This document shows positions 52,609 through 61,955 of a DNA stretch of 64,000 nt, one piece after another (positions within the stretch are counted from its first letter, which is position 1; each line of letters opens with the position of its first letter). This stretch comes from an uncultured Prevotella sp. GTDB taxonomy: Bacteria > Bacteroidota > Bacteroidia > Bacteroidales > Bacteroidaceae. The notes beneath the pieces are model-generated. The model had not been told where the DNA came from. It saw only the letters and a program-made list of their open reading frames with translations, and did no database searches. The translations under genes and the position numbers were made by a program. Where the stretch lies: NCBI GenBank assembly GCA_934204655.1, contig CAKPZJ010000002.1:1-64000 (forward strand). The letters are read 5' to 3'.

Positions 52609-53241
52609 TCAGCCTACCTTTTCGACCAGGCGCTCTATGTAGTCGCACATCATGCGTATGCCCTTCACGTTCTCACCTCCTTGTGGGATAATGAGGTCGG
52701 CATAGCGCTTGGTGGGTTCTATAAACTGCTCGTGCATGGGCTTGAGCACTTTCAGGTAACGCTCTACCACCATCGAGACGGTTCGGCCACGGTCTATGGT
52801 GTCTCGCTGAATGTTGCGGATAAGCCGCTCGTCAGAGTCGCAGTCTACGAATATCTTCAAGTCCATCATGTCGCGCAGCTTCTTGTTGATGAGCGTCATA
52901 ATGCCCTCTATGATGATGACCGGCTTGGGCTCTACGTGTATGGTTTCCGGCAACCGGTTGCATATCAGGTACGAGTAGGTGGGCTGTTCGACGGCATGGC
53001 CGTTACGGAGCTCGTTGACATGATGTACGAGTAGCTTCCAGTCGAACGCGTCAGGGTGGTCAAAGTTGATGGCATGGCGTTCCTCGTCGGTCATGCCGAT
53101 GTTTTCATTGTAATACGAGTCCAGGGGCACCACCGTGACGTAGTGGGGTGGTAGCGCCTCGACTATTTTTCGCACCACGGTGGTCTTGCCCGACCCCGTG
53201 CCTCCGGCTATGCCGATAATGGTTATGTCTTCCTTGTTCAT
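52609..53241 (-). CDS. udk: Uridine kinase
   Basis: 210 residues. Walker A GIAGGTGSGKTTV near the N-terminus, then LDSYYNENIGMTDEERHAINFDHPDAFDW with the nucleoside-binding Asp, and DLKIFVDCDSDERLIRNIQRD. It phosphorylates uridine and cytidine, the salvage step that would trap pyrimidines derived from RNA or DNA. It is the last gene of the unit EEP nuclease - UDG-like - udk, 5 bases after the previous gene. Confidence 0.94.
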   Translation of the reverse strand: MNKEDITIIGIAGGTGSGKTTVVRKIVEALPPHYVTVVPLDSYYNENIGMTDEERHAINFDHPDAFDWKLLVHHVNELRNGHAVEQPTYSYLICNRLPETIHVEPKPVIIIEGIMTLINKKLRDMMDLKIFVDCDSDERLIRNIQRDTIDRGRTVSMVVERYLKVLKPMHEQFIEPTKRYADLIIPQGGENVKGIRMMCDYIERLVEKVG

Positions 53242-53246
53242 AGTAT

Positions 53247-53822
53247 CTATCTGAATATCTCGTCAAACATGCGGCCGTAGTATTCGGCCTTTTTCTCTAC
53301 TTTCATGGGGTAAGCCCTACTGCTGCTGGGCTCGCGGTACAGCCGCAGTTGGCGGCCGCCATACGTAAAGGGTACCCATCCTCCCATGGGCGGCTGTCCG
53401 GCTATGCCATAGTGGGTGGTGAAGAGGTGGGTAGCCAGCTGGCCTGCAGTAAGTACGGCCTGGCACTCAGGCAGAGCCGTCAGCAGCGCATCCAGGTCGG
53501 TTGGTTCCACTATCTCTAAGTCTTTGTCAGATGCCGTGCCCTTGGTGCGACGTACACAGACGGCCGTGTCGTAGATGGCCACGCCCTGCTGAGTCAGGAA
53601 AGCCTTGATGGCCTCTAAGCGAAACGTCCGGTGCTCGCTATCTACGAAGTGTAGCTTGTCCTGGAAGAAGTATAGCCCGAAGATGCGCCACATATCGTTA
53701 GAAAAGTTAGGATAATACCACTCCATGCACCACCGCTTAGGCGCTGGCGGAAACGTGCCCAGCATGAGCAGCCGTGCATGGGGTGGCAGGAAGGGCTCAA
53801 AGGGATGACGCTCGGTGTCCAC
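53247..53822 (-). CDS. Uracil-DNA-glycosylase-superfamily protein
   Basis: 191 residues. The UDG-like fold shows in LLMLGTFPPAPKRW (active-site motif 1 region), YPNFSNDMWRIFG, VAIYDTAVCVRR and AVLTAGQLATHLF. It has no signal peptide, so it is cytosolic. Whether it excises uracil or another base cannot be read, because motif 1 is not the canonical GQDPYH of UNG. It sits between a secreted nuclease and uridine kinase with gaps of 3 and 5 bases. Confidence 0.75.
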   Translation of the reverse strand: MDTERHPFEPFLPPHARLLMLGTFPPAPKRWCMEWYYPNFSNDMWRIFGLYFFQDKLHFVDSEHRTFRLEAIKAFLTQQGVAIYDTAVCVRRTKGTASDKDLEIVEPTDLDALLTALPECQAVLTAGQLATHLFTTHYGIAGQPPMGGWVPFTYGGRQLRLYREPSSSRAYPMKVEKKAEYYGRMFDEIFR

Positions 53823-53825
53823 GGC

Positions 53826-54875
53826 TTACTGCTGTTTGTAGAAATAAGCCACAACGGGCAAGTGGTCCGAGTAACCATCAAGCCACACGCCGCCGGCAGT
53901 AGTGCGCTTGGGCGCGCCCTTGTATTTACCGCTGCTCTGGATAAGGTAATCGCGGCGGAAGATTTGAGCTTTCCAGAACTTGAGCCCTTTGGTATGCTCC
54001 TTGGCCTCGCCCTTGCGTGTAAGCAGGTTAGGGGTCATCACGATTTGGTCAAACAGGTTCCACGAACCACTATAGAAAAGCGTTCCGGTACCACTCTTGT
54101 GGATGTTGTACCAAGGGTTGTACATCTCGCCGTCGCCCACTTGCTCCTTGTCCTCTTTGGCCCCTAAGGCATCGTGCATGCTCTTGTCCTCGGGGTCATC
54201 GTTCATGTCGCCCATAACCAGAACCTTGCAGGCAGGGTTCCGGCGTAGCAGCGAGTCCTTGATGGCGCGAACCTGGGTACCAGCCAGTTCACGATAGTAC
54301 GAGGTGCTGAAACGGCTGGGCCAGTGGCATACGATAGCCGTGACGGGCTCGCCCGCCAGGACACCCTCTACGGTAAGGAAGCCACGGGTTACGAAATTAC
54401 TGTCCTTGGGCAGAACCGGTACGTAGGGCAGCAGCTTGTAGCTGGTCACCTGGAACAGGGCCGGGTTGTACAGGAGCGCGCAGTCGATGCCTCGCCGGTC
54501 TGGGCCCTCTACATGTACGTACTTCATGCCCCTGGCCTTGAGCGCCGGTTGGCTTGTCAGTGCGTTCAGAACCTTGTCGTTCTCTACCTCGCTCAGTCCT
54601 ATGAGTGCGCAGCCCACGTTGGGCAGTACGTCGGTACCCATGTCGGCCAGGGCAGTCGACATATTTTTCAGTTTGTGTGAATATTTCAACCCATCCCAGT
54701 GGTAACTACCATTAGGGAGAAAATCAAAGTCGCGCTTGCCTACATCGTGACAAGTGTCAAAGAGGTTTTCCTGATTGTAGAAGCCCACTGCATAGACGGA
54801 GAACTTCTTCTGGGCAGCGACCGAAAGGCATATCATCCATGCCGCTACGGTCAAAAACATTCTTACGTTCTTCAT
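53826..54875 (-). CDS. Secreted endonuclease/exonuclease/phosphatase (EEP) family protein
   Basis: 349 residues with a signal peptide (about 1-21, ending ...SVAAQ). EEP motifs: VGFYNQENLFDTCHDVGK (metal-binding Glu), IGLSEVENDKVL, KVLVMGDMNDDPEDKS and the C-terminal YSDHLPVVAYF (catalytic Asp-His). The family includes exonuclease III-, DNase I- and phosphodiesterase-like enzymes. Export and neighbours favour degradation of nucleic acids outside the cytoplasm. First gene of the minus-strand unit, divergent from the TonB receptor by 143 bases. Confidence 0.85.
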   Translation of the reverse strand: MKNVRMFLTVAAWMICLSVAAQKKFSVYAVGFYNQENLFDTCHDVGKRDFDFLPNGSYHWDGLKYSHKLKNMSTALADMGTDVLPNVGCALIGLSEVENDKVLNALTSQPALKARGMKYVHVEGPDRRGIDCALLYNPALFQVTSYKLLPYVPVLPKDSNFVTRGFLTVEGVLAGEPVTAIVCHWPSRFSTSYYRELAGTQVRAIKDSLLRRNPACKVLVMGDMNDDPEDKSMHDALGAKEDKEQVGDGEMYNPWYNIHKSGTGTLFYSGSWNLFDQIVMTPNLLTRKGEAKEHTKGLKFWKAQIFRRDYLIQSSGKYKGAPKRTTAGGVWLDGYSDHLPVVAYFYKQQ

Positions 54876-60671: not shown

Positions 60672-60923
60672 ATGAAAAAAGGTATTCACCCAGAAAACTA
60701 TCGCCCCGTCGTATTTAAGGATATGTCCAACGGCGATATGTTCCTCTCAAAGTCTACGTGTAAGACCAATGATACCGTAGAGTTTGAAGGCGAGACTTAC
60801 CCAGTGGTAAAGATTGAAATCTCAAGCACCTCTCACCCCTTCTATACCGGTAAGAGCAAGCTCGTAGACACCGCCGGTCGTGTAGACCGCTTCATGAACC
60901 GCTACGGCAAGTTGAAGAAGTAA
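60672..60923 (+). CDS. rpmE2: 50S ribosomal protein L31 type B
   Basis: 83 residues, the zinc-free type B form: MKKGIHPENYRPVVFKDMSNGD, then HPFYTGKSKLVDTAGRVDRFMNRYGKLKK. It lacks the CxxC pair of type A L31. It has its own promoter and terminator, so its place between two genes of the putative nucleic-acid locus is probably positional, not functional. Confidence 0.95.
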   Translation: MKKGIHPENYRPVVFKDMSNGDMFLSKSTCKTNDTVEFEGETYPVVKIEISSTSHPFYTGKSKLVDTAGRVDRFMNRYGKLKK

Positions 60924-60952
60924 TATATCTTTCGAATATATTCGTATGCGAG

Positions 60953-61000
60953 AGTGCGTCCCAATGTAGTTGCATATGCATTGGTACGCACTTTCTTTTT
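60953..61000 (+). terminator. rpmE2 terminator
   Basis: AGTGCG and CCAATG arms (60953-60966) pair with CATTGG and CGCACT (60979-60992) with a 2-base internal bulge, followed by TTTCTTTTT. Confidence 0.8.
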
Positions 61001-61048
61001 ATCTATACCCTTATACCATTTATCTATACCCTTATACCATTTATCTAT
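60999..61048 (+). repeat. 21-bp tandem direct repeat upstream of the NUC nuclease gene
   Basis: TTATCTATACCC-TTATACCAT occurs twice (60999-61019, 61020-61040) and partially a third time, running into the ATG at 61047. Its spacing of 21 bases fits two helical turns. It may be a regulator-binding repeat or an unstable leader. Confidence 0.6.
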
Positions 61049-61955
61049 GAAATCTATACTTAGTGCGCTTGTCGCCATGGGGGTGGTCATCGGTCTGTGT
61101 GGTTGTGGCAGCGATGGCCCCGGCAACGGCAATCCTGGCGATGAGCCCCAGGGCACTGTTACCAATGCCAACCGTAACGTTATCAGCGCCTCTACGCCTC
61201 ACGAGGTAACCCGGTTAGAGTTCCCCCGTCTTCATGGCACCAACAGTATCGTCCTGGTTCATCATACCAGTGGTGCCCACGATGTGAGCTACTCCTGCGA
61301 GTGGGATTATCAGAAGAAATCGCAGCGGTGGTCGTGCTGCGCCATGACCAGCCAGACCATCAAGGGTGGTGCGGGCTATACCGGCGACTTCAGGGAAGAC
61401 CCCGATCTGCCCACGGCGATGCGCTTCAGCGATACCAGTTCGATGTATTCGGGCTCCGGGTTCACCCGCGGCCATATTATCGCCTCGGCCGATGTGCAGT
61501 ACTCGCGCGAGGCCAACCAGCAGACTTTCTACTATACCAATATGCAGCCCCAGTACTACAATTTCAATGCTGGCGAGAATTATGAGGGCATCTGGGTACG
61601 TATGGAGAACTGGGTTCGTAAGAAAGCCCAGTCGCTCCATGATGGCGACACCCTCTTTGTGTGCAAGGGTGGCACCATTGATAACGAGAGCCAGATTTTG
61701 AAGCGTGTTAAGAACCAGCTGATAGTTCCGCGTTACTTCTATATGGCGCTGCTAATGAAGTCGGCAGGCCAGTACAAGGCCATAGGACTGTGGGCAGAAC
61801 ATAAGAGCACGGTCGATAAGAGCGAGGTGGCATCGCATGCCATCACCATCGACGAGTTAGAGCGCCTTACAGGCATCGACTTCTTCTGTAATCTGCCCGA
61901 TGACATAGAGCATAAGGTACAAGGAAGCATCAGCCTGATAAGCTGGGGGCTATAG
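61047..61955 (+). CDS. DNA/RNA non-specific endonuclease lipoprotein (NUC family)
   Basis: 302 residues from ATG 61047; the open frame to 60954 crosses the rpmE2 terminator. The lipobox is GLCGC (Cys about 17). The beta-beta-alpha-Me nuclease site is FTRGHIIASADVQYSRE with the catalytic His, and the metal-site helix region QQTFYYTNMQPQYYNFNAGENYEGIWVRMENWVR. This family cuts DNA and RNA without sequence preference. Lipid anchoring puts it on the envelope, where it would fragment nucleic acids for uptake. It fits the context of the TonB receptor and EEP nuclease. Confidence 0.9.
   Translation: MKSILSALVAMGVVIGLCGCGSDGPGNGNPGDEPQGTVTNANRNVISASTPHEVTRLEFPRLHGTNSIVLVHHTSGAHDVSYSCEWDYQKKSQRWSCCAMTSQTIKGGAGYTGDFREDPDLPTAMRFSDTSSMYSGSGFTRGHIIASADVQYSREANQQTFYYTNMQPQYYNFNAGENYEGIWVRMENWVRKKAQSLHDGDTLFVCKGGTIDNESQILKRVKNQLIVPRYFYMALLMKSAGQYKAIGLWAEHKSTVDKSEVASHAITIDELERLTGIDFFCNLPDDIEHKVQGSISLISWGL

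Follow-up and report, generated by a model that had tools for sequence, protein, structure and literature searches.

A receptor, lipoprotein and nuclease locus of the Prevotella group as a candidate module for DNA entry across the outer membrane

Results

Organization of the Locus

The locus spans positions 52609 to 61955 of the window, the whole 64,000-nucleotide stretch that was analyzed, and contains eight reading frames, all at the positions given in the original prediction:

52609..53241, minus strand: Udk, uridine kinase, a variable neighbor outside the core (TIGR00235, 253.8 bits; cut-off 220.3)
53247..53822, minus strand: weakly UDG-like protein, a variable neighbor outside the core (TIGR04274, 40.2 bits; cut-off 80)
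53826..54875, minus strand: secreted EEP nuclease, core (PF19580, 6.7e-90)
54876..55018, no strand: divergent gap between EEP and receptor genes, 143 bp
55019..57583, plus strand: TonB-type outer-membrane receptor, core (predicted fold; homology to the Riemerella receptor)
57598..58824, plus strand: DUF5689 lipoprotein with a C-terminal OB fold, core (PF18942, 1.2e-67, over the cut-off)
58865..60574, plus strand: OB-repeat lipoprotein, a frequent partner (PF01336, 5.7e-12)
60672..60923, plus strand: rpmE2, ribosomal protein L31 type B, a neighbor (L31 type B match)
61047..61955, plus strand: NUC endonuclease, a frequent partner and probable lipoprotein (PF01223, 4.8e-42)

The two units diverge, exactly as predicted, around the 143-bp gap between the end of the EEP gene at 54875 and the start of the receptor gene at 55019, and the DUF5689 gene starts 14 bp after the receptor gene. 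The assignments of Udk, with its score above the family cut-off, and of rpmE2, lying between the OB-repeat and NUC genes, are both upheld. The UDG-superfamily label is weak, as TIGR04274 is its sole match and reaches half of its cut-off. The label of TonB receptor is likewise weak by sequence, for which searches of Pfam and NCBIfam return no match, but the predicted fold is a barrel with a plug (mean pLDDT 86.9, single-chain model) that resembles the plugged TonB receptors Fiu, PqqU and FecA in a fold search of the PDB (best E 8.5e-26). Searched by sequence against the PDB, the receptor and the EEP, DUF5689 and OB-repeat proteins had no useful match.

Across 59 homologous divergent gaps, the motif TAnnTTTG occurs towards the receptor in 30 and towards EEP in 25, against means of 6.7 and 7.9, respectively, in 200 shuffles; the gap of the window itself contains no exact instance. 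Inspection by eye places a TAATTTTG element at 60617–60624, immediately 5′ of rpmE2, so rpmE2 and NUC may be transcribed separately from the receptor unit. A scan for sigma-70-type promoters gave 11 matches, compared with 8.7 in shuffles.

A Three-Gene Core Recurs across Bacteroidota

All of the predicted genes are present in the window, but the conserved core is smaller than the predicted locus and consists of the divergent EEP gene, the receptor and the DUF5689 lipoprotein. Of 80 named Prevotella-group loci, 76 extend far enough to tell whether DUF5689 directly follows the receptor, and in all 76 it does; a divergent EEP gene immediately precedes the receptor in 64 of 72; the neighborhood of receptor, DUF5689 and EEP therefore exceeds chance. 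More widely, Bacteroidales loci carry DUF5689 in 62 of 68 cases and EEP in 49 of 67, and all three genes occur together in 20/20 loci of Weeksellaceae that were read. Of the 67 Bacteroidales loci, 18 lack an EEP gene next to the receptor, as do 5 of 17 receptor-bearing loci of the phylum sample. The original prediction was exposed to the objection that homologous receptors might mostly lack nucleases; most of their loci keep one, so on the genomic side this objection falls. Within the family, presence is patchy (55/101), and in the genomes tested the receptor and DUF5689 are either jointly present (5/5) or jointly absent (8/8).

The remaining genes are less constant. Of the named loci with room to tell, 57 of 69 contain the OB-repeat gene, 43 of 59 NUC and 39 of 63 rpmE2, while Udk adjoins EEP in 41 of 65 and the UDG-like gene is present in 34 of 69. 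Among 71 wider Bacteroidales loci searched at E 1e-5, UDG is not found and Udk gives one weak and doubtful match (L150, 38 bits, in a 556-amino-acid reading frame). That the presence of Udk, UDG, rpmE2 and DUF308 differs between genomes is what would be expected if the genes were chance neighbors with no shared function, but we regard this explanation as scarcely credible: for the core it is contradicted by the return of the same three genes, at 25–29% identity, from Prevotella through to Riemerella, although it may hold for Udk, UDG and rpmE2. One recurring flavobacterial neighbor, tried as DUF1343, was rejected; by eye its sequence resembles the GTPase HflX.

The Nucleases

The secreted EEP nuclease is borne out both by its PF19580 match and by conserved residues of the catalytic type: N34, E36, E96, E98, H184, D223, N225, D337 and H338, which we take to be catalytic, each have a conservation of 1.00 in 135 sequences. 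The second nuclease, predicted to be a lipid-anchored NUC endonuclease, matches PF01223, and an LCGC motif read by eye makes it a probable lipoprotein. Its start, also read by eye, is probably the ATG at 61047 rather than the upstream GTG at 60954. H145, the histidine of its RGH motif, and N167, N176 and E189 (all numbered from 61041) are invariant in 49 sequences. The best PDB sequence matches are to a nuclease (2o3b, 1zm8) and to EndoG/EXOG, and EndA is not among the 18 matches listed. EndA of Streptococcus pneumoniae, a DNA-entry nuclease, is a PF01223 member, as the window NUC is, although the latter sits in a Gram-negative outer-membrane locus.

The Riemerella Counterpart Is Required for Transformation

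In Riemerella anatipestifer, natural transformation depends on two neighboring genes, the receptor gene RA0C_RS04915 and the DUF5689 gene RA0C_RS04920; each is essential, and deletion of either abolishes transformation (PMC8459023). The requirement has been shown in this species only, and the EEP gene was not among the mutants of that study (PMC8459023). According to a second report, tonBA and tonBB mutants of R. anatipestifer also transform less, whereas a tbfA mutant does not, and its abstract reports no iron defect for tonBA (PMC8383284).

The gene order in Riemerella genome G169 is comEC, a 145-amino-acid reading frame, a carboxyltransferase, EEP, the receptor and DUF5689. Thus, as in the window, a homologous TonB-type receptor has DUF5689 directly downstream and a divergent EEP gene upstream. 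The window receptor aligns to that of G169 with 236 bits (E 8e-70, 25% identity), and the EEP and DUF5689 proteins align to their Riemerella homologs with 148 and 76.6 bits, respectively. The window DUF5689 protein also aligns with NCBIfam NF052645, the M949_1556 family of lipoproteins, over residues 7–393, but its score of 86.1 bits stays below the cut-off of 475, which its Riemerella counterpart passes with 599. The loci differ in that the Riemerella receptor has a CarboxypepD_reg domain and its DUF5689 protein ends in a choice-of-anchor J/DUF5017 domain, whereas in the window the receptor lacks the former and the DUF5689 protein has an OB fold at its C terminus instead; the window also has the additional OB-repeat and NUC genes. 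Since both Riemerella-type domains are missing, we consider the window locus a relative of the Riemerella module rather than the same type.

These genetics, the only ones found for homologs of the locus, bear on what the locus is for. The original prediction was nucleic-acid scavenging, in which the nucleases would break down DNA or RNA outside the cell, the receptor would import the products as a source of phosphate, carbon or pyrimidines, and Udk would trap nucleosides. Its first part is retained, as a conserved unit of receptor, OB lipoprotein and nuclease plausibly handles extracellular nucleic acid. Scavenging would also accommodate the frequency of NUC and Udk in named loci, the patchy presence within the family, and four loci (L156, L160, L161 and L171) in which NUC, EEP, receptor and DUF5689 all run in one direction. 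Its second part, pyrimidine salvage, is not sustained: the homologous Riemerella pair points to transformation, and Udk and UDG are the least constant genes and are missing from the wider loci, apart from the one doubtful Udk match. Salvage or nucleoside-transport genes are not conserved with the locus, and the ten window genes scanned contain no match to a nucleoside transporter, a nucleotidase or SusD. Our literature search found no report that DNA or RNA supports growth through this locus or induces it. We consider scavenging unlikely. Because two Riemerella counterparts are essential for natural transformation, a DNA-entry machine is likelier than a nutrient scavenger, and we favor, with a probability of roughly 0.6, a TonB-powered module for DNA entry across the outer membrane that carries its own nuclease or nucleases and probably serves transformation. 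The conserved three-gene core, the four loci that run in one direction, the joint presence or absence of receptor and DUF5689, and the likeness of the DUF5689 model to tandem OB-fold nucleic-acid binders also speak for this reading.

The Surface Lipoproteins

The prediction of two OB-type lipoproteins after the receptor holds. The first combines its PF18942 match with an additional, sub-threshold OB match, and its predicted model (mean pLDDT 93.2, single chain) has OB-fold proteins as neighbors in a fold search; these include tandem OB-fold nucleic-acid binders as well as non-nucleic-acid proteins such as the heme chaperone CcmE. The second is supported by PF01336. Both are mostly acidic across homologs (pI ≤7 in 67 of 72 and 58 of 63), which argues mildly against simple DNA binding. 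In one locus, L036, DUF5689 adjoins an unrelated receptor.

These properties would suit capture of another cargo, such as a metal complex, cofactor, peptide or glycan, by lipoproteins whose fold binds many ligands, with the nucleases serving, for example, to clear surface or biofilm DNA. P. intermedia offers a possible parallel, by activity, in secreted DNases that act on biofilm and neutrophil-trap DNA (PMC12568770). The need for the Riemerella pair in transformation and the conservation of nucleases beside the receptor count against such a cargo, which we judge quite improbable. The acidity of the lipoproteins and the ligand range of OB folds also weigh against DNA entry, as do the missing Riemerella-type domains, EEP genes that do not adjoin the receptor, and a Porphyromonas gingivalis-like genome without the pair (see below).

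Discussion

In the DNA-entry module that we favor, the DUF5689 and OB-repeat lipoproteins would hold extracellular DNA at the cell surface, EEP (and NUC where present) would cut it or strip one strand, and the receptor, energized by TonB, would move it to the periplasm, from where ComEC could carry one strand inward for recombination. Part of the cut DNA may feed the cell too. The arrangement resembles SusCD importers in having a lipoprotein gene just downstream of a TonB receptor, but the window lipoproteins have an OB fold and no SusD match. The module would do the work of the type IV pilus in Vibrio cholerae and Neisseria (per PMC8459023), delivering DNA to the periplasm, but would rely on a TonB receptor instead of the pilus and secretin.

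The original prediction that the set had not been described as one system is partly right: our literature search did not find the nuclease partnership, but the receptor-DUF5689 pair is already known from Flavobacteriaceae. The strand-making nuclease of R. anatipestifer is called unidentified in the discussion of PMC8459023, and the EEP gene, which is conserved beside the receptor and by gene order would be RA0C_RS04910 in that species, is a direct candidate for it. The Prevotella-group locus extends the question to Bacteroidales, where gene exchange, including that of resistance genes, matters.

PMC11532111 treats passage of DNA across the outer membrane of P. gingivalis, a competent species, as an open question. 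The genome that we take as P. gingivalis lacks both receptor and DUF5689; it was picked by a 16S primer that matched 1 of 38 genomes in its family (0/199, 0/120 and 0/150 in three others), the family being guessed as Porphyromonadaceae from a single named match (P. crevioricanis, 49%). Its lack of the pair argues against a phylum-wide rule; should the module import DNA, there must be another route as well. A broader proposal is tentative, and we hold it somewhat less probable than its negation: much of Bacteroidota may take up DNA across the outer membrane without a pilus, by a TonB-powered receptor with DNA-holding surface lipoproteins and its own nuclease, EEP (together with NUC in some lineages) being the "unidentified" strand-making enzyme, and lineages like P. 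gingivalis having replaced the module.

The comEC gene lies near EEP and the receptor in Riemerella and on a separate contig from the locus in a near relative of the window genome (G001). As discriminators by co-occurrence, comEC (PF03772) and HHH_3 (PF12836) were dropped, since both are near-universal and so uninformative: comEC scores over its cut-off in 142 of 148 Bacteroidales genomes and HHH_3 is found in 141. Among the matches listed, the best for HHH_3 lie mostly in a protein of ∼710 amino acids, which we take to be Tex.

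Architecture of the receptor locus

The genes assigned to 52609–61955 in the original prediction, and the 143-bp gap at their center, are present as described:

within 52609–61955, minus strand: Udk, a weakly UDG-like protein (UDG) and a secreted EEP nuclease (PF19580)
between the minus-strand EEP gene and the plus-strand receptor gene: divergent gap, 143 bp
within 52609–61955, plus strand: a TonB-type receptor, two OB-fold lipoproteins, rpmE2 (encoding L31) and a NUC endonuclease (PF01223)

The receptor has no match in a Pfam search. Compared with the PDB, its predicted structure, built with 40 sequences (mean pLDDT 86.9; residues 1–57 below 50), resembles TonB receptors that contain a plug, the best match being Fiu (8.5e-26). 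The receptor is also found in the near relative G001, at 98%, and the closest organism-named relatives are Prevotella sp. (65%). The NUC endonuclease is probably a lipoprotein, with its start at 61047. A 21-bp tandem repeat (60998–61048, 2.4 copies) ends at this start codon, and we would guess that its copy number may alter NUC expression. A second tandem array, with 5.1 copies of a 64-bp period and 94% matches, lies 3′ of NUC at 62261–62583.

EEP, receptor and DUF5689 form a conserved core

Conservation was examined in four samples: the phylum, Weeksellaceae, Bacteroidales and titled species records. DUF5689 occurs in 60 of 118 genomes of the phylum sample, for which 30 loci were obtained and 20 were read: the top 18 by strength, including one from G001, plus two weaker ones. 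The receptor lies immediately 5′ of DUF5689 in 17 of these 20, and a divergent EEP adjoins the receptor in 12. Loci L049 and L050 carry DUF5689 without a window-type receptor, and in L036 the DUF5689 protein adjoins a 712-aa ORF with no match to the receptor profile. By eye, this ORF resembles another TonB receptor; the adjoining protein combines DUF5689 with choice-of-anchor J, and the pair lies at 7219–10897. In Weeksellaceae, 114 of 120 genomes have the receptor, and all 20 loci read, six from the genus that includes Riemerella, hold EEP, receptor and DUF5689 in a window-like arrangement.

With the window protein as query, the receptor was found in 71/148 Bacteroidales genomes (E 1e-30). 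Within the window's family, 55/101 genomes have it (E 1e-40). The 71 Bacteroidales loci read come from 70 genomes, excluding G001. Among those with room, DUF5689 is immediately 3′ of the receptor in 62/68 and NUC lies within 4.5 kb in 7/48. The proposed survey for nuclease partners finds EEP immediately 5′ of the receptor in 49/67 (45 divergent, 4 co-directional). Four loci (L156, L160, L161 and L171) have NUC, EEP, receptor and DUF5689 co-directional, with gaps of 7–76 bp or a short overlap; in L161, a second EEP gene (15067–16083) lies on the opposite strand, ∼3 kb past this run. Neighbors were sought by tblastn in the best 80 of 590 titled relatives. Nearly all of these bear titles of Prevotella or its kin; an Eggerthellaceae title is one of the exceptions. 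Among these 80, loci with room contain DUF5689 in 76/76, EEP in 64/72, OB-repeat in 57/69, NUC in 43/59, Udk in 41/65, L31 in 39/63 and UDG in 34/69. From the neighbor counts across the four samples and the co-directional runs, the locus is a real, conserved unit with a three-gene core of EEP, receptor and DUF5689. In the window's group this core is commonly joined by NUC and OB-repeat; the presence of Udk, UDG and L31 is less constant.

Homology to transformation genes of Riemerella

Within the open-licence literature searched, DUF5689 is named only in PMC8459023. In R. anatipestifer, natural transformation is abolished by markerless deletion of RA0C_RS04915 (an outer-membrane protein with CarboxypepD_reg) or RA0C_RS04920 (DUF5689/DUF5017), each alone, and also by insertion in comEC, dprA, comF or recA (PMC8459023). 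The authors propose that the RS04915/RS04920 pair binds DNA and passes it through the outer membrane; they leave the strand-making nuclease unidentified, and RS04910 is absent from the mutants of Table 2. The paper describes RS04915 homologs as widely distributed in Bacteroidetes, but also as found only in Flavobacteriaceae. According to PMC8383284, R. anatipestifer tonBA and tonBB mutants show reduced transformation and tbfA mutants no difference, with an iron defect reported for tonBB, not tonBA.

In the Riemerella genome G169, whose receptor has a best match named R. anatipestifer (94%), the order is comEC (PF03772), a 145-aa ORF, carboxyltransferase, EEP, receptor and DUF5689. This fits tags RS04895 to RS04920, so RS04910 would be the EEP gene. 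Window and Riemerella proteins match at 236 bits (receptor), 148 bits (EEP) and 76.6 bits (DUF5689).

The original prediction read the locus as nucleic-acid scavenging. Its chemistry is plausible; as a purpose, scavenging is less well supported than DNA entry, probably for transformation, to which distant homology with the genetically tested Riemerella pair and gene order both point. Such an entry route would consist of a TonB receptor, OB proteins at the surface and a nuclease dedicated to it. In the open-licence literature searched, preprints excluded, we did not find EEP described as a constant partner, NUC as a partner, or the Prevotella version.

With 599 bits against a cut-off of 475, the Riemerella DUF5689 protein (locus L082, 10731–12134) is a member of NCBIfam NF052645. 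That family is named after M949_1556, a gene reported as linked to R. anatipestifer LPS, antigenicity and pathogenicity. The LPS and transformation phenotypes may concern the same gene. A few genes from the receptor locus of this Riemerella genome, at 15495–18932, is a 1145-aa ORF that is Cas9-like by eye.

Joint presence and absence of receptor and DUF5689

The receptor is present in 30 of 38 Porphyromonadaceae genomes (E 1e-60) and missing from eight, two of them <90% complete (G850, G852, G853, G854, G855, G856, G864 and G866). DUF5689 was not found in any of these eight, even at E 10. We take G853 to be P. gingivalis, a 16S primer having been found in it four times. On that assignment, a competent species manages without receptor and DUF5689. 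This counts against the transformation reading, as do the 55/101 occurrence in the window's family and loci L036, L049 and L050. The competence of P. gingivalis is reported in PMC11532111. In Bacteroidales genomes, neither comEC nor HHH_3 had discriminating power. DUF5689 is present in all five receptor-bearing Porphyromonadaceae genomes tested, and with its absence from all eight receptor-less ones, this indicates that receptor and DUF5689 are gained and lost jointly.
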